Origin: Liolophura sinensis
Lineage: Eukaryota > Mollusca > Polyplacophora > Chitonida > Chitonidae
DNA length: 64,000 nt
Reading direction: 5' to 3'
NCBI RefSeq assembly: GCF_032854445.1
Contig: NC_088302.1
Span: 51,240,046-51,304,045, forward strand
Both the position numbers and the translations under genes were made by a program. The notes under the pieces were generated by a model that was not told where the DNA came from, searched no databases, and saw only the letters and a program-made list of their open reading frames with translations. Below are positions 4,303-60,000 of this stretch, in pieces (the stretch's first letter is position 1; every line of letters begins with the position of its first letter).

Positions 4303-6671
4303 CTGAATTGAAATGGAAGTAGAAAATGTCATCACGCAAAGATAAAAACCACATGTACATGTATTTCATAAGTATTCCTGAGCTGAACAAGGACTTGATC
4401 AATGCCAACTGTAATACTGTTTTCTCACCACTATGGCTATGGGACAAAGAGGAAGCTTTTCTTACCAGTTGTTAGCTGTACTTTCCTGTACTGGAGGTGA
4501 TGGAGGATAGTTGTTATATTATGAATGTGACGTGCAGAAGATTTGCCTGTATTGGAGGTGATGCAGGACTGCTGTTATATCACGAATATGTAGTGCAGAA
4601 GACTTACCTGTATTGGAGGTAATGAAGGAATATTGCTACATCATGAATGTGAGGTGCAGATGACTTACGTATATTGGAGGTGATAGAGGACTCCTGTTAT
4701 ATCATGAAAGTCAAGTGCAGATGACTTACCTGTATTGAAGGTGATCGAGGATTGCTAATATATCACAAAATATGAGACAAAGAAGTCTTACCTGTATGGG
4801 AGATGATGGAGGATTATTGCTATATCGCGAATGTGAGGTGCAGAAGACTTACCTGTATTGGAGGTGATGGAGGATTGCTGTTATATCATGAATGTGAGGT
4901 GCAGAAGAGTTACCTGTATTAGAAGTGATGGAGGATTGTTAATATATCACAAAGTATGAGACACAGCAGACCTACCAGTATGGGAGATGATGGAGGATTA
5001 ATGCTATATAACGAATGTGAAGTGCAGAAGACCTACCTGTATTAGAGGTGAAGGAAAATTGCTGTTATATCATGAATGTGAGGTGCAGAAGACTTACCTG
5101 TATTGGTGGTGATGGAGGATTGCTGTTATATCATGAACGTGAGGTGCAGAAGACTTACCTGTATTAGAGGTGAAGGAGGATTGTTAATATATCACAAAGT
5201 ATGAGACACAGCAGACCTACCAGTATGGGAGATGATGGAGGATTAATGCTATATAACGAATGTGAAGTGCAGAAGACCTACCTGTATTAGAGGTGAAGGA
5301 AAATTGCTGTTATATCATGAATGTGAGGTGCAGAAGACTTACCTGTATTGGTGGTGATGGAGGATTGCTGTCATATCATGAACGTGAGGTGCAGAAGACT
5401 TACCTGTATTAGAGGTGAAGGAGGATTGTTAATATATCACAAAATATGAGACACAGCAGACCTACCAGTATGGGAGATGATGGAGGATTAATGCTATATA
5501 ACGAATGTGAAGTGCAGAAGACTTACCTGTATTAGAGGTGAAGGAGGATTGTTAATATATCACAAAATATGAGACACAGCAGACTTACCAGTATATGAGC
5601 TGATGAAGGATTACTGCTATATAACGAATGTGAAGTGCAGAAGACTTACCTCTACTGAAGGTGATGGAGGATTGCTGTTATATCACGAATGTGAAGTGCA
5701 GAAGACTTACCTGTATTAGAGGTGAAGGAAAATTGCTGTTATATCATGAATGTGAGGTGCAGAAGACTTACCTGTATTGGAGGTGATGAAGGATTGCTGT
5801 TATATCATGAATGTGAGGTGAAGAAGACTTACCTGTATTGGTGGTGATGGAGGATTGCTGTTATATCATGAATGTGAGGTGAAGAAGACTTACCTGTATT
5901 GGAGGTGATGAAGGATTGCTGTTATATCATGAATGTGAGGTGAAGAAGACTTACCTGTATTGGAGGTGATGAAGGATTGCTGTTATATCATGAATGTGAG
6001 GTGAAGAAGACTTACTGGTATTGGTGGTGATGGAGGTTTGTTTATATATCACGAATGTGAGAGACAGAAGACTAATCTGTATTGCTGGTGATGAAGGATT
6101 GTTGTTACGTCAAAAATATGAACCCTAGAAGACTTACCTGTATTGGTGGTGATGGAGGATTGCTGTTATATCATGAATGTGAGGTGCAGAAGCCTTACCT
6201 GTATTGGTGGCGATGAAGGATTGCTGTTATATCATGAATGTGAGGTGCAGAAGCCTTACCTGTATTGGTGGTGATGGAGGATTGCTGTTATATTGCTGCA
6301 GAAGACTTACCTGTATTGGACGTGATGGAGGATTGTTGTCATATCACGAAAGCAAGGTGCAGAAGACTTACCTGTATTGGTGGTGATGGAGGATTGCTGT
6401 TATATCATGAATGTGAGGTGCAGAAGCCTTACCTGTATTTGAAGTGATGGAGGATTGCTGTTATATCACGAATGTCAAGTGCAGAAGACTTACCTGTATT
6501 GGAGGTGGCGGAGGATTGTTGTCATATCACGAAAGCAAAGTGCAGAAGACTTACCTGTATTGGAGGTGGTGGAGGAGGAGCTTTGCCTTTCTTGATGTTG
6601 TCATCTGAATACATATTCACATACTGCATTGGTGGAAGGGGGTATGCACTCACCCCTTGATTCTCACCCAT
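3756..6671 (-). CDS. MED7: Mediator complex subunit 7 (whole gene, 2 coding exons)
   Basis: MED7 is a middle-module subunit of Mediator, the nuclear coactivator bridging transcription factors and RNA polymerase II; with MED21 it forms an elongated hinge. The protein is about 220 residues (human is about 233 from memory). It runs from [17 protein letters not shown] through a poly-Pro stretch, [42 protein letters not shown] and [16 protein letters not shown] to an acidic tail; I recall the same order of blocks in metazoan MED7. One phase-0 intron (6554-4303) has donor GTAAGT and acceptor ttcag. Oddities: the intron is almost entirely a tandem array of the exon 1 donor, and the second exon carries a one-base frameshift at 4019-4022. 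The start ATG has A at -3 and G at +4. The gene is divergent from the Tec-family kinase. Confidence 0.93.
4478..6575 (-). repeat. Minisatellite of the MED7 exon 1 splice donor (about 61 bp, some 34 copies)
   Basis: On the minus strand each unit reads roughly CACCTCCAATACAG|GTAAGTC, then about 40 bp of intron (ttctgcacctcacattcatg and on). The first copy is the true exon 1 end. Most copies keep an intact CAG|GTAAGT. A higher-order period of four units (about 245 bp) is visible around 5041 and 5286. The array fills more than 90 percent of the MED7 intron. Read-through of the true donor meets a stop within a few codons. Confidence 0.92.
6555..6671 (-). CDS. MED7: MED7 exon 1 (start codon, Pro-rich N-terminus)
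   Basis: The exon is 117 bp, 39 codons, and ends in phase 0 with ATACAG|GTAAGT. It encodes [17 protein letters not shown], then a conserved DDNIKKG and six prolines, as in the metazoan MED7 N-terminus. The ATG context is AAGATGG. The last part of this exon together with the donor is the source of the 61-bp array that fills the intron. Confidence 0.9.
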
Positions 6672-9560: not shown

Positions 9561-9700
9561 ATTTATACCAGAAAAACACAGAATTGATTTTTTTTTTTAC
9601 TCCAGGAATCAGTTTTTAACTGAATTTTACCACAGAACACGTCTAAAATCGATGTGTATGAATCCCTGGCCCTTAGCCACTTTCTCAGGAAGTTACTTAC

Positions 9701-9811
9701 TTCAACAAAGGCTGCATTTGTGTCATTAGATCCAAAATAGAGGTACTGGTGTGTTGTTACATGCAAAACTTTTCTTTCTTCAATGCAGCCAATCTGGCGG
9801 CACGTTTCCAT
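9701..9811 (-). CDS. Possible first coding exon, unrecognised
   Basis: A minus-strand ATG opens METCRQIGCIEERKVLHV and runs 37 codons to a consensus donor GTAAGT (GTTGAA|GTAAGT). Composition looks coding, but no downstream exon was found and I do not recognise the protein. It lies in the interval between MED7 and the kinase. It could also be chance. Confidence 0.2.
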
Positions 9812-11939: not shown

Positions 11940-12089
11940 ATGGCAGCTGGTGGTGAAAATTGTATCAAACTGACATTTATGCAGAAAAAGTCCCAAAACA
12001 AACGAACAATAACTGCTCAGAACTTAAAATACAGATGGTTTGGACTGTACCCGGATGCTTTGCGTTATTTCGATGGCACACCTTCGAAG
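11940..12089 (+). CDS. BTK: Kinase exon 1: start and PH domain beta strands
   Basis: 50 codons, ending phase 0 at TCGAAG|GTAAGC. It includes KKSQNKRT and [18 protein letters not shown], the PH first strands; Arg32 aligns with BTK Arg28, a phosphoinositide contact. It opens at the only suitable ATG; upstream codons lead back to no ATG in frame. Confidence 0.9.
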
Positions 12090-15000
12090 GTAAGCTGACT
12101 GTATCCATAACATGTTTTGAATGGACAGTATAGTTTATTTGTGATTAACTAATAATGTGTTTATTATGTATTTGCCAGACTGTTGTGTTTAAACTATGTA
12201 GATCTACAAAGAGGCCACACGTTTGGACACACTGAACAGAGGCTATGCTGGCTCAGCTACATTTTATAGGTCAATGACTGTTAAATGCCAGGTTGATCTG
12301 TAAACCTCACTCATCTAACCATATAAATATTCTGATAGTTCTTATGTGTGAAACATCAGTAAACACAAAATAATTTTAAAACACACACATTCCATAATTC
12401 TTCTAAAATTTGGGACAGATATTAGTAGTGTTAACAGTAGAATATTACATTTCTTTACCAGCCTTTTGGAAAAGTAAAGATATGAGTATGATATTCATTA
12501 GATGGGCTAACCATGTTAGAAAAAAGAAATTCAGTATTCCAGCTAGAATTACATATATATTGGGTAAAATGAGCAGACCAGGTGTCCCACAATTTAAGAA
12601 GAAATAGGGTAGGCTAATCCTCCATCAAAGGCATGTTAATGTCAAGCATCTTTGCATGGTATCTTTACATGTATTTGTGAATGTTGGGCCTTAAGCTGAC
12701 TGAGCAGAATAATGGCTCCTGGCGGATGTAACATCACTAGCTCATCCTTAATCTGTGAAACTGCATTTTAAATCCAGCTCCTGCTGACAGGGTCACAGCT
12801 TAAAATCAGCTGGTGTTTTGTGAAAATTTTATTTGATAAATCTTTCTACCTGTGCTCTTGTGATGTTGGCATAACATATGATTTGATATTTTTGTTAGAG
12901 AAGTGGATACATCATTATGTAAAGCATGTTTATTATGAAATCTCTTTTAATTGGTTCATTAATTACATTTGATATTTACAATATGGAGATATCACAATCT
13001 TTATTAAATTCAGTGTGGAAGAAATAAAAACATATGTTCCTAGATGTCTGCATGAATGACCCAATATGAACCATATAGGAACATCTACAATGATCGCTGC
13101 CTTAATGTTCAGGGAACATACATGTCTGACAAATATTGATTTTCATGATGTCGAAGTTCTGTTCGTGTTATGCTTTATCCTTTGTCAAATGATTAGATAA
13201 CATTGATCCATCATGTATGTATGTGAAAGTTGTGTATCAGTGAAGTTTGTACTAGTGGTATGTCATGTTGTGATGTGGCAGTGGTTGTTCACATGACCTT
13301 CATAACTGTTGTATGCACATACACGTAGATACATATTTCATTTCAGTCATTCATTCCAGTTAATTGTAAAACACAGTGTAGTTGTAATCTTATTTTGTCA
13401 TATTTGTTAATGTGTCATCTAGTGTGTCCAGGGTTTGGATTTTGGTCACACAAATTAATTTGTATTACACCATAAAGACATATAAGAATTATGCTGTGTT
13501 ATTATTAGCTAAACTGACAATTACTCCACGTCATGCTGCTAGACCATCTGAGCCAAATGCTCTCAGGCTGAATACACTAGAACATGATGACGGTCTGGTT
13601 AAGTGCCATATTATATGTACACTGTGTAAAAATATGTTGTTGACAAGTCTTATGTGTACCAGCGAAAACGTATTTAAGCCCATGTTCATTGACACTATCA
13701 CCACTTTTTGCCAACATACATGTATACATTGTTTTAGTGTGAATAATTGACAAATGGCCTAAAATTTTCTAAAAAAAGTTTAAGAGGCAAATAAATTTTA
13801 AGAGGCAAAGAAATGTCGTAAAGTATTACATTTGGTGCTGAAACTTACATTTTGCAGTAAGATATCAACCAGTAATTTTTCCAGTCAGATATCAACCAAC
13901 ATAAACCTACCAAGCAAACCTGAAAACACCTTCTTAAGATCAACAGAACTCTTCTAATAAGGCAGAATTGTAGTCCAGCTTTGTAGTCATGGACAGAATT
14001 TTAGGCCATTTACCATAATTTTCATTAGTCATGTTTGATGTCACTACTGACTGCAAATTTGCTTTTTCCTTTTTAATGCATATAACTGACCTTTACAAAG
14101 TTGATACTTATGAAAATGTTGCATTATAGTAATTAAACACACATGTAGTTTTACCTTGTCGAGAGGAAAGTCCATTCTATAAAGGCCCTTTATAAGGGTA
14201 CATGAACATAAAATCCCTTTGAAACGGTTGTGTAGTTTGCTTACTATGGCATATTGTAGGAATGTTCTTTGATCACATTGTATTATGTTGAATAATGTGG
14301 AAAATTGACAATTCCCAATTTGTCATGATCAGAAAATACTTCTTCTTTGCTCAAAATGATGATTGACATGGTTATGATATGAACAACATCGTTGAAGTGC
14401 AGTCTTGGCAAGATCTAATCTTGTGAAAATGAGAAAATCGACATGGTAACTGATTGTTGGATTTTTTCTATTGGCTTGTCCTTGTTATCACCTGAAGAGA
14501 TAATGCACAGTTTGGCATACTGAGAGAAGACCGTGTAACAGAGGGCATGGTAGAAAACGAGAAACTGTATTCATGTAAAGAGACACATTGTTAATATCTT
14601 GTGAAGTATTTTCAGTGAAGTTGTCTATTCTGTGATTACATGAACATGTACAGTTAGAACAATCCTACATATACATTTAGTTGTCTTGTTAATGGAGACA
14701 GTTTTAGACTCACATTATCCAAAAAATTTGAGTCATGCGTTTTTTTATTGAAACTTTCTTTATAGTGGCTTTAAAGGACATACAGATATTTTGAGCAAAA
14801 ATATTAACTTGAAAAAGTAGGTTTTCTTTCATTCAGTTCTACAAAATGTTCACATTTTTGATGACATTAATCTTGTAGTTGAAAGCAATTACATGTAGAT
14901 ATAACTTTATTAAGTCAAAATTCTTGACAACAGTTAATAAGTAGCTTTAAATTTACTGTGCAGTTTTGCTGAAGCCAACTGGAGCAGCATTTGTACACAT

Positions 15001-18000
15001 GTCCATGTATACAACATACATACATACATACATGGGAAAGCTTTACTGATCAAACATGCGTGTAGAGCACCCCTTTTCGATCATTATGAATGAATGATTA
15101 TGGCTTAACGCCACATCGGCTATATTTCAGGCATATCGTGGCGATCGATCATTATGATGAACAGATGACTGAAATATGAACACCTTTTTAACAGTTGCAC
15201 AATTTTAAGTCTATGTATTAACATATTCCTGTTGAAGACATCTCTTTCAGCTACAAACTTAAAGGGTATTAGTTCAAACCCGGCTCGATCTGGCTGGCTT
15301 CCCCTGCAGCTGTAAGTGGGAAGGTATGCCAGCAGTCTGCGGATGATCATTTATTTCCCTTGGACCCAGTTTCACAAAGATGTCGTACATATACGATAAT
15401 CGCACATATAGGACAGTTGTGTAGTAATATTGACATACAAAATATCGTATAACAAATGTACGTTAAAAAAATGTTTCATGCTGCTTTGTGAAACTGGGCC
15501 CGGGTCTCTGCCTGTTTTTCTTTCACCATAATGCGGGTCGCCGTCATACTTTTAAGTGAAATATTTTTGAGTATGTTGTAAAACACCAAACAAATACACA
15601 AATGAAGGAATAATATTAAACTTACATCCACATCATTTGGATATGGTATTTTGGTGTAGGCTGAAAATGGATGACTGTGCTGTTTGTAAGTAATTATGCT
15701 CCTGACTTTTCCAAGAGGTTCATACATTGAATTATCACTTAAATAACGATCTTACTCTACTGGAATTACTCCTGTTTAGCACACAACCAGCTTTATGCTT
15801 GTTCATGTTAGTTCACCTTAAGAAGATGTTTTCTTTGTGATAAAAAAAGTCATTATTTAAATTGAATACATGTCCTGAGGCACATCATTCCTGAGCTTAA
15901 AATATCTTTGTCTAGCTGTGGTCTTTGCCTTTTTTCCGGATACCCTGACACAACATTTACTCACTCGTGCTGACATGTAAGACGTTGTGCACATCAATCA
16001 CCTTAAACTTTTCTGCAAGTTACATCTATATGTATTTCTGCTCTGTGAAAGACTAAAGACTTTCACACCTAAAAATTGTCAGAGGAATTAAAATAGTTAA
16101 GCCAAACGCAAGCGTTTAACATATGTAATTGTCATGATGAGACGTTTGCACGTGTCAGCAGCAGGTATTTATGCTAGGTCATGCCAGCATTTCAACAGGC
16201 CTGGCGCACACTTTTAACCAGAATATTAAATTTAAATTTTTAACTTTATAATTAAAATTGGGACATGATTTTATATTCATTATGGTTTCCATAAATTCAA
16301 CCACCTAAGCCCAAAATATTAAGAAAGACTAATGGTGTGTTTCCAGTGACGTGATTGTGTCTGTGTTAGTTCATGCGATGGCTTGATGCAGCAATCAGAG
16401 TGTTTCCACGGCCCCTGTGTTTACCTGCATGATCTACTGCTCTGCTTATCCACCCAGCAATAAGTCCTTGTCCGATTCGTTAAAAATGGCACAGTTGTTC
16501 CATTCACTCGACATTAAGGTTTGCATGAAATCTGTGGAAACACTCCAGCATATTTGTGTACGTCCCATTCTTGGAAAAAGTAACGGATGAGTAATCGCAA
16601 TCACAATTGCATGTCCATGGAAACACAACTTTATATGTGATTTAATATTATTTATCAATGTCTGTCATGTATTATGTAGTCAAAGTCCTGTTTCTTCATC
16701 GTGTTCCCATGTGTACAAGAAGGCAAATCTGTATCAGATTAGCTCTGTGAAGTGTAAGATACATACATGTACAACAAAATGTTTTCTCTGGGTCGCCACA
16801 TATTCTGTGAATCTTATTCAGTACTCTCTTCTTTTCCAGACCAGCTAGTACATGAAAAGGCGAGTTTTAATCAGGTCTGTGCTATGAAGTACATGTACAT
16901 GTATTTTTGCATAGTGAAGTGAATTTTTGTGGGCTGCTCATCTTCAGTACTTTGTAGAAAAATCTGAAACCTGACCAAAGGGTTAGCCTTGTCTTTATCA
17001 GTATATAAAATGCATGTGTTTTAATCAGGTCTGCTGTGAAGTTCATGTACATGCATCAGGTTCGAGGGTTGACAGATACCTGGTCAGGTGTGACGGTACC
17101 TGTGAGTTCAGACCAGATTCTTCCGCATTTATATGATATATATGCATTTGATAGCAAATGTTATTGAAATGTGTTATCGTGTTTTATGAGTACATAACCA
17201 TTAGATTCTACAGTTAGGACGTATGATAATTCAAATAATGGCCATTCTGCCAATCAGAATAACCAGGCTTTACAACTAAGCTCCTTAGAAGAGATTGTAC
17301 ATGTACATGTACCTAATTGTCCTAGCCACTGTTATGAGAGTCATGTAGCCTCTACACGTGTGTATAGGCAGGTGAACGTCTAATTCCAAGTCAGATTCCT
17401 ATCAGCACTTGAATTAACATTAAGCTGTGTTTAATGTTGTCATTTCACAGTTAAAAGCACATACATGTAGGGTAACATAATCACTGTATATGCGGGCCTC
17501 CATAGCCGTGGGGTGGGGTGGGGGTGGGGGGAGTGAGTAAGCACACCAGCAGGGTGCAATGACCCAGGAGCCTCCGACCAATGCCATCACTGTGAGTTCA
17601 AGTCCAGCTCTCATGCTGGCCTCTTCTCTGGCCGTATGTGAGAAGGTCTGTCAACAACCTGCTTATGATTGTGGGTTTCATCTGGGCTCTGCTTGGTTTC
17701 CTCCCACCATAATGCTGGCCAGTGTTGTAGACGAGAAATGTTCTTGAATCACTCATTAAACAAATAAATCAGTGTATATACGTGAATGTAGTTTACACTA
17801 AATAAGCAGTGAAAGGCCTGACCAAGTATTCTAGGTATGACAGTGTGCTCATCATGAGTACTTTATAGCCAAGGATGTAGTTTTGGTGAAGACTTATTTG
17901 TCTTATTCACTGAAGTGGAACAGGTTGAATTTCACCTATGAAGTTCCATATAGGGCATCGGTATAATACTGAAACCTGACATCCTTCTGTTTATAAGATA

Positions 18001-21000
18001 GTGTATATGTAAAATCAGGCATGTGTAATCCTTCTTTAGCAAGTCAACAACTGATGAAGTAACCTCTGAAAATGTAGTTGAGTATTGTGAAATCTAGGAC
18101 ATTGCAATTCTTGTGTACTCCATATAGGTTTTATGAGCCCGATAATTGTGATGCAAAAAAAAAAGAACAATTAGTTCATAGCTGAAGAGTTCCCCAATGA
18201 ACAACACCCTGTAGTAAAGAACCTTGCATTATCAAATTGTGACATCAAATATGCACTGAAGAATTGTCAAAACTGCTGCAGTTGTGTTAAGTCTGGTGAT
18301 ACAAATTTTGCTTGTGATTTTTGAAACAACAGTTTCAATCTTTTCATTTTGTCCTGAAAAAGCATTGTAACTTTTTCGATATTCCTTTGAAATACTCTTG
18401 CATATATCGGAAGACTTTTTGCCAGTAATAACTACAGTGTATTAAATGGATGCATGCATGTAAACATATAATGATAATCTATTTGTTTTTTTAATAGGCT
18501 GACAGTTGCTCCTTACGTTCACATATTTAATCTACTCAATCGAATTTTTCACTTACCAGTACATGGCTTAAAATCATTTAACGTTCATGTACATTATATT
18601 AGAATGGTGGCTAATTATGTGTTTTGGTAACATCTTTCAGGACGTGTCACAAAGATTTATTATTTTTTTAATGAAATGTTGTTGAACTCCAGTTGTCACA
18701 AATGTAATTATAGAATCATTAAACACTGTTTTGCCTTTATTTTTGGATGTGTAAATGATCTCAGTTTTTTCTCATTCCATAATTAGACCTTTGTTTTTTA
18801 CAGCCACCTGTCAGTGAATCATTAAGCTAGCTGGGTTAAGACTTGTTTTCATATGTGGTTTTAATTGGGCGATACCACGTCACTTCAATTTCCTGCCCAG
18901 AGTACTCAGATTTTATTCCTGAAACTGAGACTCTGTCATTTAGAAGAAAAGGATATACTGGTATACATACATGTATATGTGGTTGCTCTAAGAGAAATGT
19001 TCTAGAAATTCCTCAGGTTATTCAAAGTAAGTATAATTACTTTCATTTATGGTCAGTTATGCTGTATGTTTATTGGTCAGTGTTCAAAAACTTGTCTATC
19101 TTCACCATGTCTTAAAATGGTATTTATTCATGTCACTCAGTTTGATCATTGTATTTTGTTCTTTAGTAAGATACCTGAGTTTTAGATTTACTTAAAAAGT
19201 AGGAATATAGACCTTGACTTAGTGTTATTAATTAAGGTTGTATGACAGTTTAAATACATTGTAATATGGTTTATACATCAGTGTAGCTTGTATGTGTGTG
19301 TTATAGCTTGGAAGTACATGTACATGTAAAAAGGGACTGTCTAACACTATTGATGGGCCTATATGTAATTCTATATACTATCGGAATTATAGGTAATATA
19401 CTATCAGGGTCACCTCTATATACATACGTATATGTACCAGGAAGCTGACTCTGTGTGTTGGTGATTTTGTATGTACATTTGTGACCATGTTATATTGAAG
19501 CGCATGTTGCAGTGAAGCATGTTATCTTGAAGGAGAGTGGTTAGCGGCACAGTGATCCTTGTGGAGCCTCTCCATTGTGGGTGCTGTGAGTTCAGCTTAT
19601 GATTGCTACCTACACGTGCATGGGAAGGTTTTCCAGCAACCTGCAGATGGTGGTGGATTTCCCCCTGGATATGTCTGCTTTCCTCCCACCATAAAGCTGG
19701 CCGTCATCGTAAGCTGAAATATTCTTGAGTACGGCATAAAACACCATTCAAATAATTAAATAAAGAAATCAAATAATGAGTGAAAGGCATATATGTACAG
19801 TGTTTGATTGGATAACACAGTGGGATATGTACAGCAAAAGCCATCTCATTTGTCGAATGAATCTCTTTTGTATACAGTATTCGTGAGAACTTAAGCATTC
19901 ACACCTTCTCTCATCTTTCGTACTATGCTATCATAGCTATTAGTGTCATTTATGTTGGGCTTTTAAGTTAGAATTTGAAGTCTAAATTAATGGAAAATGT
20001 TTTCATTTTTAGACTATATATAGTACAGATGTATGTATTTGCTTGTGTAGGTGTACAGAATGATGGTTATCAGTAAATAAGGGAATTTCCTTGTACACAC
20101 AGACGCATTCCCTTTTTGCCCTTTTCCTCATGACATAGACTGAGGAATAATTAAGTCCCATAATTCAGTCAATATATTTTCTATTAACAGATGGTAATCT
20201 GTATGCCCTTTAGGGATAGTGTATAACCCTAAACCATATTAACTCAGAAACATTTAAAAGTCCTTCCGAACAACTGTTTCTTGGTTCACTCATTTCAAAA
20301 CCAATCTACATATATCTCTTAATTGTTTACCGATGTTGATTACATTCCCGCCACCTGAAGTACCGTAAATGACCATAAATTTTGTGCATGACTAACCTGC
20401 CCAATTGTCCTGATTCTGAGAGTTCTATTGGTTTTAGAAGGACGCTTTGAGGTTTGCTTGTGGGATGATATTCTAACCTGCCCAATTGTCCTGATTCTGA
20501 GAGTTCTATTGGTTTTAGAAGGGCGCTTTGAGGTTTGCTTGTGGGATGATATTCTAACCTGCCTAATTTTCCTGATTCTGAGGGTTCTATTGGTTTTAGA
20601 AGGGCGCTTTGAGGTTTGCTTGTGGGATGATATTCTAACCTGCCTAATTTTCCTGATTCTGAGGGTTCTATTGGTTTTAGAAGGGCGCTTTGAGGTTTGC
20701 TTGTGAGATGATATTCTAACCTGCCTAATTTTCCTGATTCTGAGAGTTCTATTGGTTTTAGAAGGGCGTTTTGAGGCTTGCTTGTGGGATGATATTCTAA
20801 CCTGCCTAATTTTCCTGATTCTGAGAGTTCTATTGGTTTTAGAAGGACGTTTTGAGGTTTGCTTGTGGGATGATATTCTAACCTGCCTAATTTTCCTGAT
20901 TCTGAGAGTTCTATTGGTTTTAGAAGGGCGCTTTGAGGTTTGCTTGTGGGATGATATTCTAACCTGCCTAATTTTCCTGATTCTGAGGGTTCTATTGGTT

Positions 21001-45000: not shown

Positions 45001-48000
45001 CAATGTAATCTATTAAAACATTATATCAAAGGCTTGAATGTTATCAGAGTGGTATATTATTTAAGCCATTACATATATATATTATGTACCATGAGGCTGC
45101 ATGCAGAAATTTATCTTCATGTATGAAAAAAAATGATTTATGATTTTATTATTTTAATTGCATGGATTTGTGGGACTTGAAAGGACAATGAGATGGTGGC
45201 AAAGTGATTTTAGAAAGCGGGGTTGAAAATGTCAAAGTCAGGTTGCATGAATGTAGAAATGTCAAAGGCAGTTATATCTGTTTGCCATTTAACATATACC
45301 CACAAATACAAACAGAATGACATTTATTATATTGCTTGACTCACACATTGCCTAATTGCCATCTGCACTATTTTAGTGATAGTCTAACTAGACCCTAGAT
45401 GACTTGTAGGAGAATGTCAAATGTAGAAATGCAGCTCGGCAGTAGAAAGAGTATTGTGGACTGCAAGGTTTTAAGACTGCTTGTTGAAGTAAATCCAAAC
45501 ATTCCTCTGACGTGCATGTAAATATAGGATTTGGTGTTATGTAATTTGTATTCTTTAATAGAGTGTAAACCACCAATAAGATAAATAAATAAATAATGCA
45601 TGTACTGCATTGTTTGGTATTAATTCAAATCTGTATTTAAGTATTAATCAGAGTATTGTGCTGATTACATATGCATATGACTTCTGAGTGGACACCAAAC
45701 TTTCTACACCTACATATGTTATTTGTAGCTGCCTGGGCTCACAGTATAGAACTCTATTTTAATGATCCCAGCCTTGGACAGGGAATTTCTGCACGTGGAT
45801 TCCCAGCTCCTAATACTGTTCATGCCCCCTTGGTAACATTAAGTGCCCAGTGATGCTCCTAGGGTCATGCATTTACACAGTCTTACATCCGTTAAAGACC
45901 ACAACTTTTTTTCTTTTACCAGTATGGTTTATATACCTCTGTACAGCATGTGTGGCAAAGTTCATCAGTAACTTGCCGTAGATTTGTGATTTAATCCACC
46001 AATAGCACTGACTTAAAAATATCATTTAAATGAAATATTCTCAAATATTGTAGTGAACAGCAGTCAAGCTTTTCACCATTCAGTATAATGCTGCCTTCAC
46101 CCGGGCCCTGCTCGGTTTTGTCCCACCATAGATAATGCTAGTCGCTATTATATATATGTGAAATATTCTTGAGTATGGCATAAAATAGCAGTCAGATAAG
46201 AAAATAAATATAATGCATGCATATAGGGTTCTGGGGTACTGATGAAAATATCTTCTATCTGAATTAATAGCCTCCTTTTAGTGCGTGGTAACATCTTTGT
46301 GCATTTTGTTTCCAGAGTGTGTGAAGAGAGGGTGTGTCTATCACACTCACTATCATACTGGAGCTTGGACCAAAGCTACGGGAAAGTTCAGCTGCTGTGG
46401 TAGGGAAGGCAGAGAGGCAGAAGGCTGTACGCAATTTATCTTCGATACTGAACGAAATTCAGGTAAGATGTGCACACAGTTAATACATCCCTCACCTTTA
46501 GACACTGAGCAACAGTCAGGTAAGCTGCACACAGTGTAATACATCCCTTGCCTGAAATACTGAACAACAGTCAGGTAAGCTGTATACAATGTAATACATC
46601 CCTTGCCTGAAATACTGAACAACAGTCAGGTAAGCTGTATACAATGTAATACATCCCTCACCTGAACTTCTGAACAACAGTCAGGTTAGCTGTACACAGT
46701 GTTATACACCCCTCACCTGAAATACTGAATAACAGTGAGATAAGCTAAACACAATGTTATACATTCCTCACCTTAGATATTAATAAATAGTCCGGTAAGC
46801 TGTACACAGTGCAATACATCCCTCACGTGAAATACTGAACAACAGTCAGGTAAGCTGCACACAGTGTAGTACATCCCTCACCTGGACTACTGAACAACCA
46901 GGAGTCAGGTAAGCTGTACACAGTGTAATACACTCCTCACCTTAGATATTGGGGGCCTCCGTGGCTCAGTCGGTTAGCGCGCTAGCGCAGCGTAATGACC
47001 CAGGAGCCTCTCACCAATGCGGTCGCTGTGAGTTCAAGTCCAGCTCATGCTGGCTTCCTCTCCGGCCGTAAGTGGGAAGGTCTGCCAGCAACCTGCGGAT
47101 GGTCGTGGGTTTCCCCGGGGCTGTGCCCGGTTTCCACCCACCATAATGCTGGCCGCCGTCGTATAAGTGAAATATTCTTGAGTACGGCGTAAAACACCAA
47201 TCAAAAAAAAAAAAAAAAAAACCTTAGATATTAAAAAATAGTCAAGTAAGCTGTATGCATCGTAATACATCCCTCACCTGAACTACTGAACAACCAACAG
47301 TCAGGTAAGCTGTACACAGTGTAATACATCCTCACCTCTATATACTGAAAAATAGTCAAGTAATCTGTACACAATGTAATACACCCCTTACCATAGATAC
47401 TGAAAAATAGTCAGGTAAGCTGTACAGTGTACATACACCTTACCTTAGATACTGAACAACAGTCAGGTAAGCTGTACGCAGTGTAATACATCCTCAGTGT
47501 AATGCCTCCCTCACCTTAGATACTGAACAACAGTCCAGTAGGCTGTACACAGTGTAATGCACACCGTACCTTAGATACTGAACAACAGTCCAGTAGGCTG
47601 TACACAGTGTAATACACACCTTACCTTAGATACTGAAAAGCAGTCAGGAAAGCTGTACGCAGTGTAATACACCCTCAGTGTAATGCCTCCCTCACCTTAG
47701 ATACTCAAAAATAGTCAGATAAGCTGTGCACAATGTACTACATATCTTACCTTAGATACTGAACAAGTCCAGTGGGCTGTACACAGTGTAATACACACCT
47801 TACCTTAGATACTGAAAAACAGTCAGGTAAGCTGTACGCAGTGTAATACATCCTCAGTGTAATGCCTCCCTCACCTTAGATACTCAAAAATAGTCAGGTA
47901 AGCTGTGCACAATGTACTACATATCTTACCTTAGATACTGAACAACAGTCCAGTAGGCTGTACACAGTGTAATGCACACCGTACCTTAGATACTGAACAA

Positions 48001-51000
48001 CAGTCCAGTAGAATGTACACAGTGTAATACACACCTTACCTTAGATACTGAAAAACAGTCAGGTAAGCTGTACACAGTGTAATACATCCTCAGTGTAATG
48101 CCTCCCTCACCTTAGATACTCAAAAATAGTCAGGTAAGCTGTGCACAATGTACTACATATCTTACCTTAGATACTGAACAACAGTCCAGTGGGCTGTACA
48201 CAGTGTAATACACACCTTACCTTAGATACTGAACAACAGTCCAGTAGGCTGTACACAGTGTAATACACACCTTACCTTAGATACTGAACAACAGTCCAGT
48301 AGGCTGTACACAGTGTAATACACACCTTACCTTAGATACTGAACAACAGTCCAGTAGGCTGTACACAGTGTAATACACACCTTACCTTAGATACTGAACA
48401 ACTGTCCAGTAGGCTGTACACAGTGTAATACACACCTTACCTTAGATACTGAACAACAGTCCAGTAGGCTGTACACAGTGTAATACACACCTTACCTTAG
48501 ATACTGAACAGCAGTCCAGTAGGCTGTACACAGTGTAATACACACTTTACCTTAGATACTGAAAAACAGCCAGGTAAGCTGTACGCAGTGTAATACATCC
48601 CTCAGTGTAATGCCTCCCTCACCTTAGATACTCAAAAATAGTCAGGTAAGCTGTGCACAATGTACTACATATCTTACCTTAGATACTGAACAACAGTCCA
48701 GTAGGCTGTACACAGTGTAATACACACCTTACCTTAGATACTGAAGAACAGTCAGGTAAGCTGTACGCAGTGTAATATATCCCTCAGTGTAAGGCCTCCC
48801 TCACCTTAGATACTCAAAAATAGTCAGGTAAGCTGTGCACAATGTACTACATATCTTACCTTAGATACTGAACAACAGTCCAGTGGGCTGTGCACAGTGT
48901 AATACACACCTTACCTTAGATACTGAACAACAGTCCAGTAGAATGTACACAGTGTAATACACACCTTACCTTAGATACTGAACAACAGTCCAGTAGGCTG
49001 TACACAGTGTAATGCACACCGTACCTTAGATACTGAACAACAGTCCAGTAGGCTGTACACAGTGTAATACACACCTTACCTTAGATACTGAACAACAGTC
49101 AAGTAAGCTGTACACAGTGTTTTATTGCTCACTTCAGACTCAAGGAATTTACCTAATTTTTTCAGGCAACATCAGAGTATTCACTTCTATAATCGTCACC
49201 TGTGTAATCAGTGTTAGCATTTTTGAGAGTGTTGAAGAATGACTCAGACTCGGCATTCTTAGCTCTGCACTGTCTCAAGTGACCAGTAATTAATAAATAT
49301 TGTCTGACATTTATGTTGATGCTTCACTCCATTGCAGGTTTGCCTACACTGTCGTATTCACAAGTAGGTTGTGATAGACCTACTCTTTGATTTCTACCTT
49401 TGTGTATTGGACGCCTAATATTTGTGTTTTTCGGTAGGCTGAGATGCTATCAGCCAAGTTGTATTGTTTGCTGACTATTGCCCTGCAATTACCACTATAC
49501 AGTATACAAGTCATCTATATGCCTGGATGATTTTTTTAAGTCTTTGTCCTTTTTTAAACAGTCTTCCTTTATTTACTGTTGTATTCTTTTTCTACTGTTG
49601 ATGAAAATTACACGACATTTGATTTAATTGTAACATTTTTTTTTCTAAGGGATGAATACCTGATATTTTTGTTGAAACAACTGGACAGGCAACTTACTGT
49701 ACCATACTGTTTACTTTAGTATGTCCCCCTGCAACTCTATAGTGGAGGACACATGCTAGCTGTTGTTGTTTGACATCCATGCTTTGTTGTGCAAGTTTTG
49801 TTCACACACCTTCATTGTTCAGACAGCCTTTCTCAATCTAACATCATTGATGTGAAAAGTATGTAGATTTACTTTAACCAAATTTCATTCCATGCTTTAT
49901 GCTGATGTCAAACAATTTTGTGTGTGAAAATTCATTTAAGAATGAAGATGCTCATCTAAAACTGTTTGTTATCCAAATTGCCATTAATTAATTTCTCAGC
50001 TCTGTACTGTCAAGGATGCAGTTTCCTCCTACTTTTCAAAAGTGCAAAACACCTTTTTAATCACAGTTCATTGTGCAATCTTTAAAGATACTTCTCTTTC
50101 CTGATTGTATATGTTTACTTGTGAGTAGAAAAGTCATGATGTTTTTGTTTTTGACAGATGCAGATATGCCGGCACAGGGAACACCCTCCTCTCCCTATCC
50201 TGGCGAGAATGGCTCCGCAACTGTTGCCCCTCAGTTACCAAGTTCAAAGCCATCCAACAAATCTGATATTAAGCTCTTTGTTGCCATTTACGACTTTGCA
50301 GGATTAGAACAAGGAGATTTACAACTCAAGAAGGTAAGTTCTTGTCTGTTACAAGTAATCCCGTCTGTCTGTGTCTCTCTGTTTCCTTTTTATTTATGTT
50401 TTATTAAAACCCAAATGGTTTATTACAAGAATATTGTTCTGCTTCAGAGTATATGTCAGCTGAACACGAAGAAGTACATGTACATTTATGCATTTTTTTT
50501 GGGGTCATTTGGGTGGCCCTATGGTACCTCATTTGACCATGTGACTGCTTTTGAAATATGTTCTCAACATTGGTATGGTTGTGTTGATGTCTAAAACTGT
50601 GCAAGCATTTAGTTTGATGAAGTTACATACAGCTGTCTGATTGGGTTTGGCTGAAATATTTGCGTGATATGTTTACAATGTACTTTTTGTTTGTACCAAA
50701 ATGTGTTGTTGTCACAGGACAGAGAGTATGAGATATTAGATGACTCCAATGAGCATTGGTGGCTAGCTAAGGATGTGCTGACTGGGTAAGTATTCAGCAT
50801 CCAGGCTGCACTCTTCCATGAGCACGTCACACAGTTTACATTGTGAACAGTCTTTAGGGTTGGCTTTGTATGATTGATCATTTTCAAATTAAGCATTAAA
50901 AATGAAGTAAAATATCAGTGGAAAACAAGAATAGTGTCATATATGATTGAGTTGACATTTCCAGAATAACCAACTTTGTAACCATTCAAGCACCCAAGCT

Positions 51001-54000
51001 TTGGGGAACGTACGTACACTGAGGAAGAATTACTCAGGTGTGGTACATGTAGCTTTTGCCGACATTGTGCAGTGCACCATTCCTGTCTCTATACCCTACC
51101 ATACATGTTGTTCCTTAAATGGTCAAGGCGATATACCTAGTTTGTTGTAATGCTTGACTACACATACAGCACACTGTGGCCAAGGGGGCTAGCATGCCAT
51201 CGCAGCGCAATGACCCTTGAGCCTCCCACCAATGCAGTTTGTGTGAGTTCAAATCCAGCTCATGCTGGCTTCCTCTCCAGCAGTAAGTGGGAAGGTCTGA
51301 CAGCAACCTGTGGATGGTCATGGGTCTCCCCTGGGTTCTGCCTGGGGAGACCATAATGCTGACTGGCCTCAGTGAATAATTGAAATATTCTTATGTATGG
51401 TGTAAAACACCAATCAAATAAATAAATAAATAACATACACTAAACAGTTATTTAAATATACAGGTACTAATATGATTACTTTTGCTTCCAGGAAGACTGG
51501 ATATATACCCTCAAATTATGTCAAGCAAAAAAATGACTTACAAACACATGAGTAAGTACATGTACATGTATGGGTTCACACTGATTCATTGATAAAATGT
51601 TTGCCAGTAATACTCTAAATGTCCCCAGGGCGAGATTCGTGAAGCGCGTTAGTTAAGTAAGCCCTGAACTATCACCACAAGGTATGTTGTAGAAATATAA
51701 AGTGCACTTAGCCAAGGCCTACTTAATATACTAAGTATGCTTCATGAAACTGGCCCAAAATGGTTGTCTTGGACAACATGTATGTTGTGTACAGCAGAAT
51801 TTGGTTTCTTTGTGTTAAGATGGAATCTAAAGATCACTTCACAGGTCAATGGATGGTAATATTTTAGTGCTAAAGAAAATAGGCGTGAGCCAAACCTTTG
51901 CTTTTTTGATGTTATATATCAAGTGGATATGTTGGGTTCCATGATAATAACCTCTGTTTTTACAACAATATTTATAGCTACATATTGTGTTTCTTCATCA
52001 GTCAGACAATGTCCAGAGATGTGTGTATTTTTGTTGTTTAAATGTGCACATTATATTGATTTTACTTAATCAAAAAGGAACAAGATATTATGGTTATTGT
52101 CTTATTTTACATGTACATGCAAAGGTGTGTTACAATTTGTAAAATTTCATTTTAAAAATCAACTTATTCCTGTCTATAAAACTTAAGAAACAAACCAAAA
52201 CGTGTCCTGTCATTTGTGAGCGAGTGACTTTTTGGACCTAAAATGGTTTTTGTTCTGCTGTGTAGATGGTACCAGTCGGACATGTCACGTAGTCGCTGCG
52301 AGGAAATACTGAGGAAAGATGGCAGAATAGGGGTCTTCCTTATACGAGATTCAGTGTCCCAGCCCGGGCTCTACACTCTCTCACTCTTCACTGGGGAACC
52401 GTAAGTTTGTGGTGTTATCTTACATGTCTGACTGATGTTTGTTGAAGAATAAAGTCAAGCTTGCCCAGTAGCTTTAAGCTCTGTATTAAAGTTGATCTGT
52501 ATATCTCAGTCAGTGAAATTTGACATCCTACAGAACTGTACCTTTTAACATGGAGTAGCGACAGATTGGAGGATGTTGCAGCTAATTTGCACTTGTTGTT
52601 GTCTAACGTCATCTGTTATACTTCATGTAACATGACATGAAACCCTTTTTAGTCATGGCATTAAACATTACCATGGTATCCCGTCACAAGCAGGTCATGT
52701 AAAGAGTTCTGAAACCTTCACTGTCTCACACAGTAGTTCCGGCCCCGATGAGTCAGCTGGTTGAGCGTCTGCTTCAGGGGGCAGTAGATCCAGGGTCAGT
52801 CTTGGGTCAGGTCACTCCTAAGACCTTAAAAGGGGAAGTTATAGCTTCCTTGCTTGTCATTCAGCGTTAAGGGGATAGTGCAACGACTGGTTGACCCGTA
52901 TCAGTATAGTGGCTCGGGTGGGAAGGCTTTCTTGCCTTTGATAAGTTGTCTCAGTGAAGCAGCACTCGATAAAAGAGGGGTGGAAATTTGTCCTGCAACA
53001 AGAAGACACATTACATGTACATGCACTCTAAGGACTCCTTCGTCATCGTATGACTGAAATATTGTGAAGTATGACGTTAAACCCCATGCACTCACTCACT
53101 CACTCACATACATGTAATATTTATTTATTTTTGTGATTGGTGTTTTACGCGGTACTGAGGAATATTTCACTTATGGTGGGAGGTAATTATATGAAATTCA
53201 AACCAGATCAGTGACGTAAGGGGATATCCTGGAATCTTTCCTGTTCATTGGCTAATGGCAATATCTAATTACAGGTAAACCCTCATGACACTATGGCTGC
53301 TCAGAGATATTTACAGCTTTGGCTTGTTTTTCTACCTTTGTAGACTTTACAAAAGTATTAAACTTGTCACTGTGGAGACAACAGAGAATTTACATCCCAG
53401 TATAATCTTCGTGTATGTGTGAGATTTTTTATTCCTTATCATGCAGATTTTCTGTATTATTTGCAGAGGAATTTTAGTTAGACATTACCACATCAAGAAA
53501 TCAGATGGGAAATACTTTATAGCGGACAAACATTTATTTAGCACCATACCAGACCTTGTGTTTTACCATAGCAGAAATGCTGGAGGTAAGTGTATGAAGA
53601 GCAACAGTCACTTATTGGCACATTAAGTAAATATATATATTGGTAGTTCCTTTAAGACTGATGATGCTTTCTAGAAGCCTCCAGAAAAAAAGCTGATGAT
53701 TAGATATGGTACTAGTGAACAACAGTAGAAAAAAAAAACAATATTTGAGACTGCTTTATTGTCATTTAGAGTATTACTGGAATGTAAAATAAAGACAGTT
53801 ATTTGTGAATATAAGTTTAAAATACACGTGTGAAGTCATAGTTACTTGAAACCTTACAGCCTTCTGGTTAAATTTAATGCCAGTATAAATATGACGGAAA
53901 GCCTGTTCTGACTGATGTTTTGTTGTACAGGGTCAAGCAATTTTGCAGGTTACAAAACTTTTTACGATTTGCACAGGTTTGGCTCAAAGAACACGATATT

Positions 54001-57000
54001 CGCCAAAACATACCAAAAATCTTCCAGCAACAGCTGGTTTAGGCCATGGTAAGTCAAACACTCCAGATTACCATTTGTATTCATATTTTTTGTTTTTATG
54101 AAGTAACTATAATCCTTGAGTTCCGTGTAGGTCTACTACATGAACGTAAAGCTTTGTCTAACACAGGGGGCATTTTACATGCATGTTAAGGTTAGCAAAG
54201 TGGGATTTCTCTTTTCTGCTGAGCTAAATTTGATTTCAGCTGAAGACTTTCAGTCTGCTTGTTTTGTTTGATTTGCCTGACATGATGCAGTTGTGCATAT
54301 TATTGATGGATATGTGAAATTTTGTTCTTCAGACAAATGGGAAGTTGATCCATCAGAACTAGAAATCTTGGATCTTCTGGGATCTGGTCATTTTGGCGTA
54401 AGTATTTCTATTGTTGGAATAGTAGTTTTGTGCAATGTAAACATGTCAGTAAAATATTTCAGTAAAAAACATCATGCTGCCTTCCAAAGAAAGCATAAAA
54501 CACTTTTAGATCAATAGATCTGTCAGGTAAAATGATTAACTTTGTCACGATCAAAATCTGGGATCAAGTAGATCATTATATTTAAATTTTTAATGCACTG
54601 AATTCTCCACAGAGTGTGCACAGAGCGGTCTGGAAACGAAGCCATCAAGTGGCTGTTAAACTGATGAGGGAAGGAACAATGTCCGAGGAGAACTTCATCG
54701 ATGAGGCCAAGACAATGAAGTAAGTGCTGCATACACACACGAGAATGGTGTGACGTGTGATGTTAGAATCAGCCGAGACAAAAGGGAGATAATCTGCCAG
54801 TTCTTCATGACTTATTGCCCCTTATTTCACTTTCATGACTCATTACGGTAAAGTGCTTATGATTCACTGCAATTTATTTTCATGGATTTTCTCCAAAAAT
54901 ATGTTTGCGGGAAATAATTTTTGGGTATTTAAGAGAATACTGAAAAACAAATCTTAAAATCTTTAAATTTTCCAAGATATAATATGACCAAAATTATTCA
55001 AGCCAAAAAAAATTTGGCTGGCCTGTCAGGCTTTCTTAGTGCAACTCCGTTCACCCTGGCAAAGATTTCACTTCATTATTTGTCATTTTTGGTAAAATCA
55101 AAATGTTTATCTTAAGATTCTAATATAAGTAAATGTCTTTTTGAAAACTGCAAAGAAGCCAGAAAAGTTTTTTGTTTTATGAATATCATGAATGTAGTGA
55201 AAAGACATGTAATTGTTGGTTTCTGTGTTGTACATATAGGTGATTGAATTATGTTACAGACAGTTACAGCATCCTAACCTGGTGCAGTTGTACGGTGTGA
55301 GCACACGGAAGAGGCCGCTCATGATCATCACAGAATTCATGTCCCACGGTCAGTCATTTGTATTAGTGCAATGTGTAATTCCACAAGGCAATTTTCAACT
55401 CTCTGGTCTAAATTTGAAGTTCAGTTTTAAAGCTTCTATTTAGGCCCTAGATATTAACAAGGTGACCACCTTATAAGTGCTATTATGAGACAAATGTGTC
55501 ATAATTTCAGATTTTCAGTACCGAAATCTAAGTATTTTGTCAAGGTTTTAAATTTTGACTGATGTCAGAATTGTCGTAGTGGAATAAATTCCTGTTGTTT
55601 ATTGACCCTATTTTGCTAGAATATTTCACTATAACTTTTAATGCTCTAACCTGTGTAGCTGGATTGTGTTTTGCTAATTATGCGATTAGATGGCGCGGGA
55701 AGGAGGATGGATCCAGACAACTGAAACACTGAAACTTTAATTTACACGTGATTTGAACATTACAAAGCAACCTATTTCTGTAGATAAGACATTCAACAAG
55801 TTCAGCTCATAAACTTTGATTGACAACTTAAAAGCACTTGCTGTAAAGTAGGAGACAGAAACGTTGTAAGAACTTTAAAATAGCCAAGGCATACTGATAT
55901 GGAGTTGTACATCCTGCCAACTCCTTTTTCAATATTGGAAGCACTTTGAAGTTTCCAGATCTTACAATACGATCGTGTATCCCCCAATTCCTCCACCCTG
56001 TCTGCATGGAAGTTTTAACGGGTACATGCCCATCAAGCTGATGCTGTCCGGACTGTTGTCTGTTATTTTTTATAATTATGATTTCAGCCATGTGCAGCCC
56101 AGTGAATGGTCTTAAGTGACAGATTTCACACGCATGTTCTCTTGAACTGTCTTAAAAGTACAGTAAAACTTTGTTGATCTAAATAATCTGACCGAGAACA
56201 ACTGCCAGTCAAAATACTGCATTGGCCAGTAAGAAAACTTTATATTTTTTCATGTTGCCATTTCGTAAGTCAAGTTCCAAGGGTAGAACATTTGGTTGGC
56301 GTGGTCAACTGAGTCGATCACTCAGTTGACAAGAACATTCCATCCAATCAAATCACTTCTGTAAGAAGCTTCAAATTTGATTGACAATCTATGAACGAAA
56401 TTTTACAGTTCACGCCCTTCGTGGCTGTCTCTGCTGTATTAACTGAGATATCAATGAATGATTGTATTGTAAAGCTGTGTGGTTACTTTTTCTAAACCAT
56501 TGAAAACTTATCAGTCCAGTTGTACATTGGGCTCTTTAAATAAACTCCAGGTAAATGAGAAGTTCATGTACAAATGAGAAACGTTTTATGAACCAGTCAT
56601 TTCGGTTGGAAAAATAAACGGGTTGTGTGTGTGCTGACTTGCATGTTTTGCTGTGAAGAAAATATTTACACCTTTTGGGACCAGTTCAGAAAGGGTTTGA
56701 TGACTTCCTACTTCCATGTTTATATAATTATTACTTTTACATGTTTTATCGTATGTTTTATTACATTCGTATGTTTTATTACATTTGTAAAAAATCTTGA
56801 CAGAGTGGAAACATTTTTTGTGCGGCTTCAAGTGAAAACAAGTGCATTTACACGTGTACTTCAAAATATTATTTCCATTTCATGAGAAACTTTGCGGCAC
56901 AATTTTCAGATGTTTCAAGCAATGAAAACTAAATTATTTTTGGTGTAAGGATGGAATCACAGAAAGGGTAAATATATTTCAAGAAATAAAAAGAATTTTG

Positions 57001-60000
57001 CACCATGGTTTGAACCTTAGAGAAAACGTTTCCGCTATACACCGCTTTGTTTGTCATTCACAAAGTAAAAAAGCACTGGTACATCTAGCATAGGTAACAA
57101 AGGTTTGGATTATTGCTTAAAGTATCTGTATTTACAAAGCCAGTAAAGGGAATCTGCGCGTTCATTTAAGTTACTTTATTGTTGTAGTGTAACATGCCTG
57201 CAAATTCCACATGCCTGCCATCTGATCATGATTTGGTAGTTTCATGGTATAAGATATTGCTGGGAGTTGAAGTCCAGCATTATGCCATCCAGGGGGTTAG
57301 CCAGAAATGTGAAAGAAGGTGTAAAGACCCTTTTTGAAGCCATTTTCTTATAGCAGGGTGTCCATATTTCATTTTCTCCTATTTCTTCCATGTTAAAAGT
57401 GGTGAAAACAAGGTGTCTAAATAATACCAGTTTTCTATTTTGACCTGTTGAAATGAATGGGTGGACAGGTAGTTGGCTAACTGTATAATGCCATCATGGA
57501 AGTGAAGTTGTGAGGTCCTAGCAAAAAAAAAAACAAAAAAAAAACAAAGAAGAGATATTGAGATGTAGATTCATCATATCAAGTCCTAAGGGCCTTGGTT
57601 ATTTTCTACCCTTTTGTCCACATCATTTCAAACAGGTAGGAGTTGGGTAAACGAATGTATCTTTGGTGGCCTTTCAAGTATGGTTTCCAAATTTCTTTTC
57701 TTTCTCCTTGACAGGTTCGTTGCATTCCTACCTGAAGCGACACAGAAACATGTTAAACAAGCCTGGTCGCCTGTTAGATATGTGCCTTCAGATCTGTAAA
57801 GGGATGTCATACCTAGAGAGGAAGAATGTGATCCACCGTGACTTGGCTGCCAGGAACTGTCTTGTGGGTCAGGAAGGGGTCATCAAGGTGGCCGACTTTG
57901 GACTGGCCAGGTATGTTGGCTGCAGCCAGGAACAGAGCGACCATAGATCACACATACTCTACATGCCCAAGACTTGTCCCCAGAAAAATCAAGTGAACTC
58001 CAGGAATTTGAATTGTACTAGCATTCTTGGGAGAGAAAGTAGAAAATCTTTTGTTGTACAATGTATTAAATTGTTTAGCCTTTTCTTTGAATTTCCCCAA
58101 AAATGTATGCACTCAGTAGAGGCAGGAAAACCAGCACTTCAAACTAACTGCTGCATGGCATAAAGTCAGGAAACCATCACTTCAAACAAACTGCTGCACA
58201 GTTTATAGCGAGGAAAACCAGCACTTCAAACTGACTGCTGAAGAATTTTGGTGCTTCAACATTTTTTATATAGAATTGAATAGATGCTAACACTCAGGTA
58301 TTTGGAATATCCTTTCCTTAAGAAATCTGGTATCAGTAAAGCTTTACTTGGTACATCTAATATTTTTATGACCCAAACTGTATCTCTGCCTAGTTGAGGC
58401 ATTTAATACAACAGTTGTTGTGTGAGTAAAACATTTTTAAGTATGAGACAAAACACCAATGAAATAAATAAATGAGTGTATTGTTCGTTTCAGATTTGTG
58501 TTGGATGATGAGTATGTGAGCTCTAATGGCACGAAGTTCCCTGTGAAGTGGGCACCCCCAGAGGTTCTCAGTTATACCAAGTTCAGCAGTAAATCTGATG
58601 TGTGGGCATTCGGTAAGCTTAATAGCCAATTCAATCTAGAGACTGTTTTATATTATACATTTACTCATGATACTCTTCAACCTTGGTTGAATTTTAAAAG
58701 ACCCCATGGGTAGCAAATTATTGAAAATAGACCTCAATATTAAAATATTTAGCAGATGCTTTCTTCTGTTTTAATCCATAATGGCTTTACATATACTGCA
58801 AACATTTAAAATACTATCATAATACTACTGTAAATCTTCAACCTTTTCAACCACTGAAGCGCTCTTTTCATTGGAATTTATGCATACAGTTGTTGTGAAG
58901 ATAATGCTAAAAATGATTTGTCTGTGTCATTAAAGATGCAAGCTTCATGAAACTGTGCAAGTTATTTCTCTGCACCCCATAGTTCTCTCAGAATGTTTCA
59001 AAATATTGGTTACAGAGTCCGTTGACAAGGTTGAAGAATTATTGTATTAAGAGGAGGAAACAATATAAAGCATGTACACTGTATTTTAAGGTAATTTAAA
59101 AATAACACATTCAATAAGAATTTTGACCAGGTGTTCCTTAGTCTTTTAGTTGAAAAAGTTTTGAAACTTATGATGTGTGTTACTTAACTGCAGGTGTGCT
59201 GATGTGGGAGATCTTCAGTGGGGCTGAGATGCCCTATGATAACATGCCAAATGCTGACGTTGTTGATTATGTAGTGAATCGTGGGAAGAGATTGAAACGG
59301 CCGCGTGACTGCCCTGATTCTGTGTACAGGGTGATGCTGGAGTGCTGGAATAAGGTACACTAAAGATCTTCTGTATAGGTTGATGCTGGAATAAGGTAGA
59401 TACAAAAAAGATCTCATGTACAGGTTGATGCTGGAATTAGGTAGGTGCACTGAAGATCTTGTGTACAGGTGGATGCTGAAATAAGGTGGGTGCACTAAAG
59501 ATCTTGTGTACAGGTTGGTGCTGGAATAAGGTAGATACACCAAAGATCTCATGTACAGGTTGATGCTGGAATAAGGGTAGGTGCACTTAAGATCTTGTGT
59601 ACAGGTGGATGCTGAAATAAGGTGGGTGCACTAAAGATCTTGTGTACGTGTTGGTGCTGGAAAAAGGAAGGTGCACTAAAGATCTTGTGTACAGGTTGAT
59701 GCTGGAATAAGGTGGGTAGCCTACACTAAAGATCTCGTGTACAAGTTGATGCTAGAATAAGGTGGGTACGTTAAAGATCTCGTGTACAGGTTGATGCTGG
59801 AATAAGGTGGGTGCACTAAAGATCTGCAGGACGATCTTTTAGTGATATGATAAGGTGGGTACACTGGAGATGAATGACTTTCCCACAATTTCACCAGTGA
59901 TAATGTTTTAATGATTTCTTTGGTGTTTTCTGTTGGGATTATATTTATGCTATTAATGTTCTAAATTGTTTTTGATAAAAGCGGAGTCTTTTTGAGCTTC

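Follow-up and report, generated by a model that had tools for sequence, protein, structure and literature searches.

Tandem arrays whose unit spans an exon–intron boundary, known as mirages, were described in amphioxus, in Adh3 and in the globin genes BflGb6 and BflGb9 (PMC3087553); TnC was added as a further case, and PGBD5 was compared (PMC3902484). In the accounts of these two papers, mirages are described in lancelets (cephalochordates) only. The BflGb6 mirage has 3 and 6 copies in two haplotypes (PMC3087553). Intron gain by tandem genomic duplication is on record for RdRp of potato (PMC4974935), and internal tandem repeats with units of about 30 bp in about 4 copies were reported from human segmental duplications, in recent paralogues and half of them in coding sequence (PMC2812944). 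Here, we describe four minisatellites at exon–intron junctions of two adjacent genes, MED7 and a Tec/BTK-family tyrosine kinase gene, in the chiton Liolophura sinensis. They lie within a window of 64,000 nucleotides (contig NC_088302.1 of assembly GCF_032854445.1, positions 51,240,046 to 51,304,045), and arrays of the same kind were found in a sample of junctions from the rest of this genome. These arrays are probably mirage-type minisatellites in a mollusc, each founded when a short stretch spanning an old junction was duplicated and then expanded within the intron.

The chiton arrays have the structural features of mirages, as far as these are described in the two papers on lancelets. Mirages are further characterized by undisturbed regular splicing of the mRNA, by length polymorphism, and by somatic instability; the likeness described here is one of sequence, as distinct from splicing or instability. 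The chiton unit spans the exon–intron boundary and holds both exonic and intronic bases (four arrays in the window and 13 sampled ones, of which four fail the strict rule given below). Arrays occur at donor (7 of 196) as well as acceptor (6 of 201) boundaries. Many units keep AG or GT: GT was kept by most copies in nine of ten donor arrays and AG by most copies in six of seven acceptor arrays (15 of 17 overall). The differences from the amphioxus cases, as reported, are the phylum, the copy number, which reaches 34–43 in the chiton versus 3 and 6 in BflGb6, and the fact that the chiton rate was measured over 397 junctions and set against chance. The internal tandem repeats of human segmental duplications, as described (PMC2812944), are likewise minisatellite expansions that alter gene structure, sometimes with activation of cryptic splice sites, but they are not amplified junctions of old introns.

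The first-pass annotation of the window, made from the sequence alone, had placed an array at each of four junctions, and all four were located by Tandem Repeats Finder (TRF; Table 1). It had also stated that one edge of each array is the true junction and that the units carry both exon-derived and intron-derived bases; this agrees with the exonic bases counted in three edge units (Table 1) and, for kinase exon 16, with alignment. The TRF array traverses the junction in three cases (MED7 exon 1 and kinase exons 3 and 4). At exon 16 it begins at the junction itself, because the units lack about 8 bp present in the exon; direct alignment of the exon 16 end with the adjoining intron gave a score of 37, the maximum for the other introns being 29. 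The exon 4 homology is weak when the exon side is taken alone (score 21, p 0.037) and rests chiefly on the stretch that passes through the junction. Units of an array match one another by 70–94%. In our reading, the exon 4 array is a single array split by an insertion, which we take to be a short interspersed element (SINE)-like sequence from its tRNA-like head and poly-A end. This insertion interrupts the array and is flanked by a direct repeat, so at least part of the array predates it. Tails resembling that of the SINE-like element are present elsewhere in the window, for example near 51200–51430.

The assembly searched comprises 609,464,459 bases. The published Liolophura assembly of about 609 Mb was obtained from PacBio HiFi reads and has a scaffold N50 of 37.34 Mb and 28,010 protein-coding genes (PMC11068029); its species was later corrected to L. 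sinensis (PMC12441733). Instead of a whole-genome scan for tandem repeats, exon-centred pieces of this genome from five gene families were sampled. Gene-dense 10-kb stretches were not used, since introns with arrays, being long, would have been poorly represented in them. Five Pfam profile searches listed 357 hits (132, 81, 50, 37, and 57), of which 218 were used, in 193 pieces around hits plus seven intron extensions. Three of the 218 exon hits (L058, L138, and L139) were removed for frame or internal stops. The remaining 215 exons have 430 ends, at which 397 junctions were called; 33 ends had no site with a position weight matrix (PWM) score of at least 4. A junction was considered crossed if a TRF array, run with the settings used for the window, had at least 8 bases on each side of it. 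A strict rule required 12 bases on each side and excluded L037. The selection rule for the first 140 pieces was fixed beforehand, although the E-value order was not strict (long open frames or overlaps were skipped and a few hits with stops were taken). A first result (9/257; 9/253 after removals) was in hand before a second batch of pieces and the secondary exons were included. The sample is one of conserved gene families. The expected number of crossings was calculated as the density of exon-proximal array edges multiplied by the mean of unit length minus 16. The background zone, 51–300 bp inside introns, was chosen after the histogram had been seen, and alternative zones were therefore also computed. 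A null expectation based on array coverage was rejected, since a junction-founded array holds the junction once, at its edge, and intronic arrays hold each of their sites many times.

Of 397 junctions, 13 (3.3%; 95% interval 1.8–5.5%) were crossed by an array. These were the donors of L001, L037, L038, L069, L072, L100, and L106 and the acceptors of L004, L005, L081, L131, L166, and L167. L069 and L072 lie one kilobase apart among the myosin-head hits of one region; the remaining crossed junctions are far apart. The background zone contained 36 array edges in 94,444 bp, which corresponds to 3.6 expected crossings; the excess is 3.6-fold (conditional binomial p 0.0003). Across 15 combinations of sample and background the ratio ranged from 2.6 to 4.5, with all p values at or below 0.012, and the first batch alone gave nine crossings where 2.2–3.3 would be expected (p 0.001–0.012). 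The effect is genome-wide, and the window is unusually rich in it: 4 of its 34 junctions, a count on which our own junction list and the first-pass annotation agree, are affected, more than in the sample (Fisher p 0.037). As a test of chance, the 4/34 of the window is a post hoc figure. Arrays that cross a junction seem to form a class of their own: when 16 arrays that were borderline or lay within 60 bp of a junction were examined for hidden homology to the exon, 15 displayed none of significance (p at least 0.07), L004 being the exception (p 0.03). A reverse search of exon ends against introns, made for 379 of the 397 junctions (18 had too little sequence), added one candidate, L126; the crossed junctions with short exonic parts (L004, L069, L081, and L166) do not stand out in this search. 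In L126, a degenerate duplication of the acceptor side of an adaptin exon lies at about 420–650 of the oriented piece, with three copies by eye and no TRF array, and it was kept outside the 13. Older junction arrays may be undercounted.

Enrichment was also addressed by counting, across the genome, donor and non-donor words that occur in three spaced copies (triples). The donor word CAGGTAAG had 1289 triples and was the most arrayed of the words tried. Triples of non-donor words numbered 360 (GAATGGAC), 242 (CAAGGTAG), 293 (GATGGAAC), 689 (CAGGAATG), 445 (GTAAGGAC), and 366 (GAATGGAA). With 30137 single occurrences of CAGGTAAG and 14616 of GAATGGAC, the triple excess of CAGGTAAG over its reversed control is about 1.7-fold per occurrence. 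This test lends weak support, because long arrays yield many triples each (e.g., C1:1375435-1381670). All listed triples of CAGGTAAG (about 100 of 1289) lie in the first 4.3 Mb of C1 and include this array, which is about 6 kb long with a 54-bp unit. The first-pass annotation had proposed an enrichment of arrays at junctions far above chance, possibly genome-wide. An excess does hold outside the window, but it is several-fold rather than far above chance, and the word count is mixed. Similarly, the presence of amplified junctions extends beyond the two genes of the window, but the view that arrays in general are amplified junctions is not supported, because 62 non-junction arrays revealed no sense-strand bias of splice motifs (p 0.4). 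The 13 junction arrays carried stronger splice motifs on their sense strand (p 0.02 for acceptors and 0.13 for donors).

The repeated copies extend away from the exon, and the exon-side copy remains joined to the coding sequence. Units are 27–125 bp long in the sample and 45–75 bp in the window, in 2.4 to about 43 copies. Their reach into the intron is about 1.35 kb in the sample (L081, about 43 copies, with extension pieces) and 2.1 kb in MED7. The all-against-all comparison of 84 units matched junction arrays only to their own array or to the gene region in neighbouring pieces; no shared mobile unit was thus seen. Intron 1 of MED7 contains 29 donor-like sites (PWM score of at least 8) in 2.07 kb of the sense strand and none on the other strand, the density in kinase intron 1 being 0.6 per kb. 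In the exon 16 array, seven donor-like sites are on the sense strand and none on the antisense strand. The published repeat table of the genome puts 0.08% under 'Other (simple repeat, microsatellite, RNA)' and leaves 14.04% unclassified, whereas 9.6% of the exon-flanking pieces sampled here is covered by TRF arrays. The word 'tandem' is absent from the main text of that publication (PMC11068029); the chiton arrays seem not to have been catalogued as tandem arrays in the published genome.

If these are mirage-type minisatellites, each array would have been founded by a single tandem duplication across a junction and would have expanded by slippage or unequal exchange inside the intron. The array would be tolerated provided that the exon-proximal site is the one mostly used in splicing. 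The several-fold junction excess may stem from a mutational bias of the junction sequence, such as higher G+C content or CAGG-type words. The G+C content is 0.422 in arrays, 0.372 in introns, and 0.473 in exon hits, and base composition may be part of the cause.

A number of points weigh against this proposal. The splice sites of the sample were called by matrix and not from transcripts, in a single assembly, and the preferential use of the exon-proximal site is likewise deduced from sequence rather than from RNA. In the second part of the kinase exon 4 array, strong donor-like sites number 11 on the sense versus 44 on the antisense strand. The exon 3 array has no acceptor-like site at a PWM score of 8, the true exon 3 site scoring 7.0. 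The L001 copies mostly lack GT (consensus GG) and those of L167 mostly lack AG. Four of the 13 crossed junctions fail the strict rule: L004 (7–8 exonic bases), L081 (9), L166 (11), and L037 (2.4 copies). The excess thus varies with the way in which the background is measured: under that rule, nine crossings were seen versus 3.1 expected (p 0.008), or eight versus 2.9 without the secondary exons (p 0.016). Within the first 50 bases of introns, array edges are likewise more frequent than expected (13 versus 7.6, p 0.045), so the zone prone to arrays may be the surroundings of exons. The donor word AAGGTAAG, with 558 triples, exceeds its own reversed control (366) but falls inside the non-donor range of 242–689, the upper end of which is set by CAGGAATG. 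The last two findings would also fit an explanation in which arrays are so common that junctions are hit like any other base and are noticed because the exon provides an anchor, as would the local richness of the window and the 9.6% of the sampled pieces covered by TRF arrays. We consider this explanation rather improbable, given the 13 crossings versus 3.6 calculated from unit lengths and edge density and the persistence of an at least 2.6-fold ratio in every combination of sample and background. In addition, purifying selection should push the number of junction arrays under the expectation, not over it. Because any selection against disturbed splicing would make such arrays fewer, the excess is more likely a matter of where duplications begin.

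A functional role of the splice-site arrays has also to be considered. Rows of intact donors could bind the U1 small nuclear ribonucleoprotein, or alternative use of units could insert repeat-encoded segments, the units at exons 3 and 16 corresponding to 25 and 15 codons, respectively. The retention of GT by most copies in nearly all donor arrays agrees with this idea, as do the strong donor-like sites of MED7 intron 1 and the exon 3 array, which is open across several units in the coding frame. However, only 8 of the 17 arrays have a unit length divisible by three, which is not clearly above one third, GT is mostly missing from the L001 copies, and the match at splice dinucleotides is just 0.9 percentage points above the mean of all unit columns (mean difference 0.009). 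The dinucleotides are conserved about like the other columns, with no clear purging and no clear selection. A functional role of the arrays is therefore improbable in our view.

Even less probable is the birth of introns, in which exon segments that contain AGGT are duplicated in tandem and an intron is thereby gained (Rogers model). The chiton arrays share with this model, as far as it is described, the tandem duplication of an AG|GT segment, and their units do carry AG|GT. A mirage-based model of intron gain has been published as well (PMC3087553). In the four window introns, however, the TRF array reaches one end only and the other end is not array, so that the duplicated segment does not account for both intron ends. 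The Rogers duplication reportedly makes a new intron inside an exon; the chiton arrays, in contrast, multiply an existing junction within its own, probably old, intron. In a protein alignment, the kinase introns between exons 2 and 3, 4 and 5, and 16 and 17 appear to lie at intron positions of human BTK, and they look old for that reason. The link to intron gain that the first-pass annotation had drawn is thus unsupported for the three amplified kinase junctions. Hits to kinase paralogues break near residue 191 (the boundary of exons 15 and 16) in several paralogues and not clearly between exons 16 and 17; these are not decisive and were not used. An assembly artefact is hardly credible: although tandem repeats are often misassembled and the one-base MED7 frame shift described below may be an error, the assembly was built on PacBio HiFi reads, which are as a rule longer than these arrays, the units differ mutually, and one array holds an insertion flanked by direct repeats.

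Beyond the mirage-type interpretation, one might suppose that in this chiton lineage a mutational process aimed at junctions, and possibly coupled to transcription or to splicing itself, amplified about 3% of splice junctions, i.e. thousands, and left rows of potentially working sites feeding new exons, introns, or isoforms. We regard this broader proposal as speculative and unlikely; the figure of thousands was extrapolated from the rate of 3.3% and a total of 28,010 protein-coding genes. No mirages outside lancelets were reported in the titles or abstract starts among the matches listed, most subscription journals being outside the search, and as far as our searches show, 13/397 is the first rate estimate for mirage-type arrays. 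With mirages in a mollusc, a rate, and a chance expectation, an oddity becomes countable. The natural rows of near-identical splice sites are material for studying how the spliceosome picks one of them, and the probably old introns that carry them offer a set of cases for exploring whether new introns arise from mirages, as has been proposed.

Table 1. Junction arrays, further arrays, and gene models in the 64,000-nucleotide window of L. sinensis (window coordinates)
Feature	Position	Strand	Details
Junction array 1, at the donor of MED7 exon 1 (coding part 6555-6671)	4480..6576	-	61-bp unit, 34.5 copies, 22 exonic bases in edge unit
Junction array 2, at the acceptor of kinase exon 3 (exon at 44815-44908)	43679..44856	+	75-bp unit (25 codons), 15.5 copies, 42 exonic bases in edge unit
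Junction array 3, first part, at the donor of kinase exon 4 (exon at 46316-46462)	46445..46942	+	55-bp unit, 8.9 copies, 18 exonic bases in edge unit
Junction array 3, second part, past SINE-like insertion	47221..49120	+	TRF, 55-bp unit
Junction array 4, at the donor of kinase exon 16 (exon at 59194-59354)	59353..59825	+	45-bp unit, 10.4 copies
SINE-like insertion within array 3	46947..47218	+	Direct repeat CCTTAGATATT on both flanks
Further arrays, kinase intron 1	20392-21528, 27226-27689, 30106-31831, 31904-31973, 36501-36857, 37279-38779		TRF and exon list
Tec/BTK-family tyrosine kinase gene	11940..60306	+	17 coding exons, 644 amino acids
MED7 gene	3740 (approximate)..6671	-	Two coding exons; oriented head to head with kinase gene

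The gene models of the first-pass annotation were borne out. Joined at their exon-proximal sites, the 17 kinase exons give a single open frame of 644 codons. The PH, SH3, SH2, and kinase domains score above the Pfam cut-offs and the BTK motif slightly below (21.7 versus 24); human BTK is the top PDB match of the protein. PF05983 is matched by MED7 exon 1 and the beginning of exon 2. In exon 2, at about 3980–4050 on the minus strand, a one-base frame shift occurs in a short A-run, the frame changing after RPHQARE; this may be an assembly error, an allele, or a real lesion.

The window contains about 12 arrays by TRF (units of at least 20 bp, score above 100), slightly more than the ten or so first estimated. 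No coding junction was seen beside the arrays of kinase intron 1 (20392..38779). One of these, at 37279-38779, consists of 22 copies of a 68-bp unit with the acceptor-like sequence TTCCCTCAGG and has no coding exon adjacent to it; a non-coding, unannotated exon beside this array is possible.

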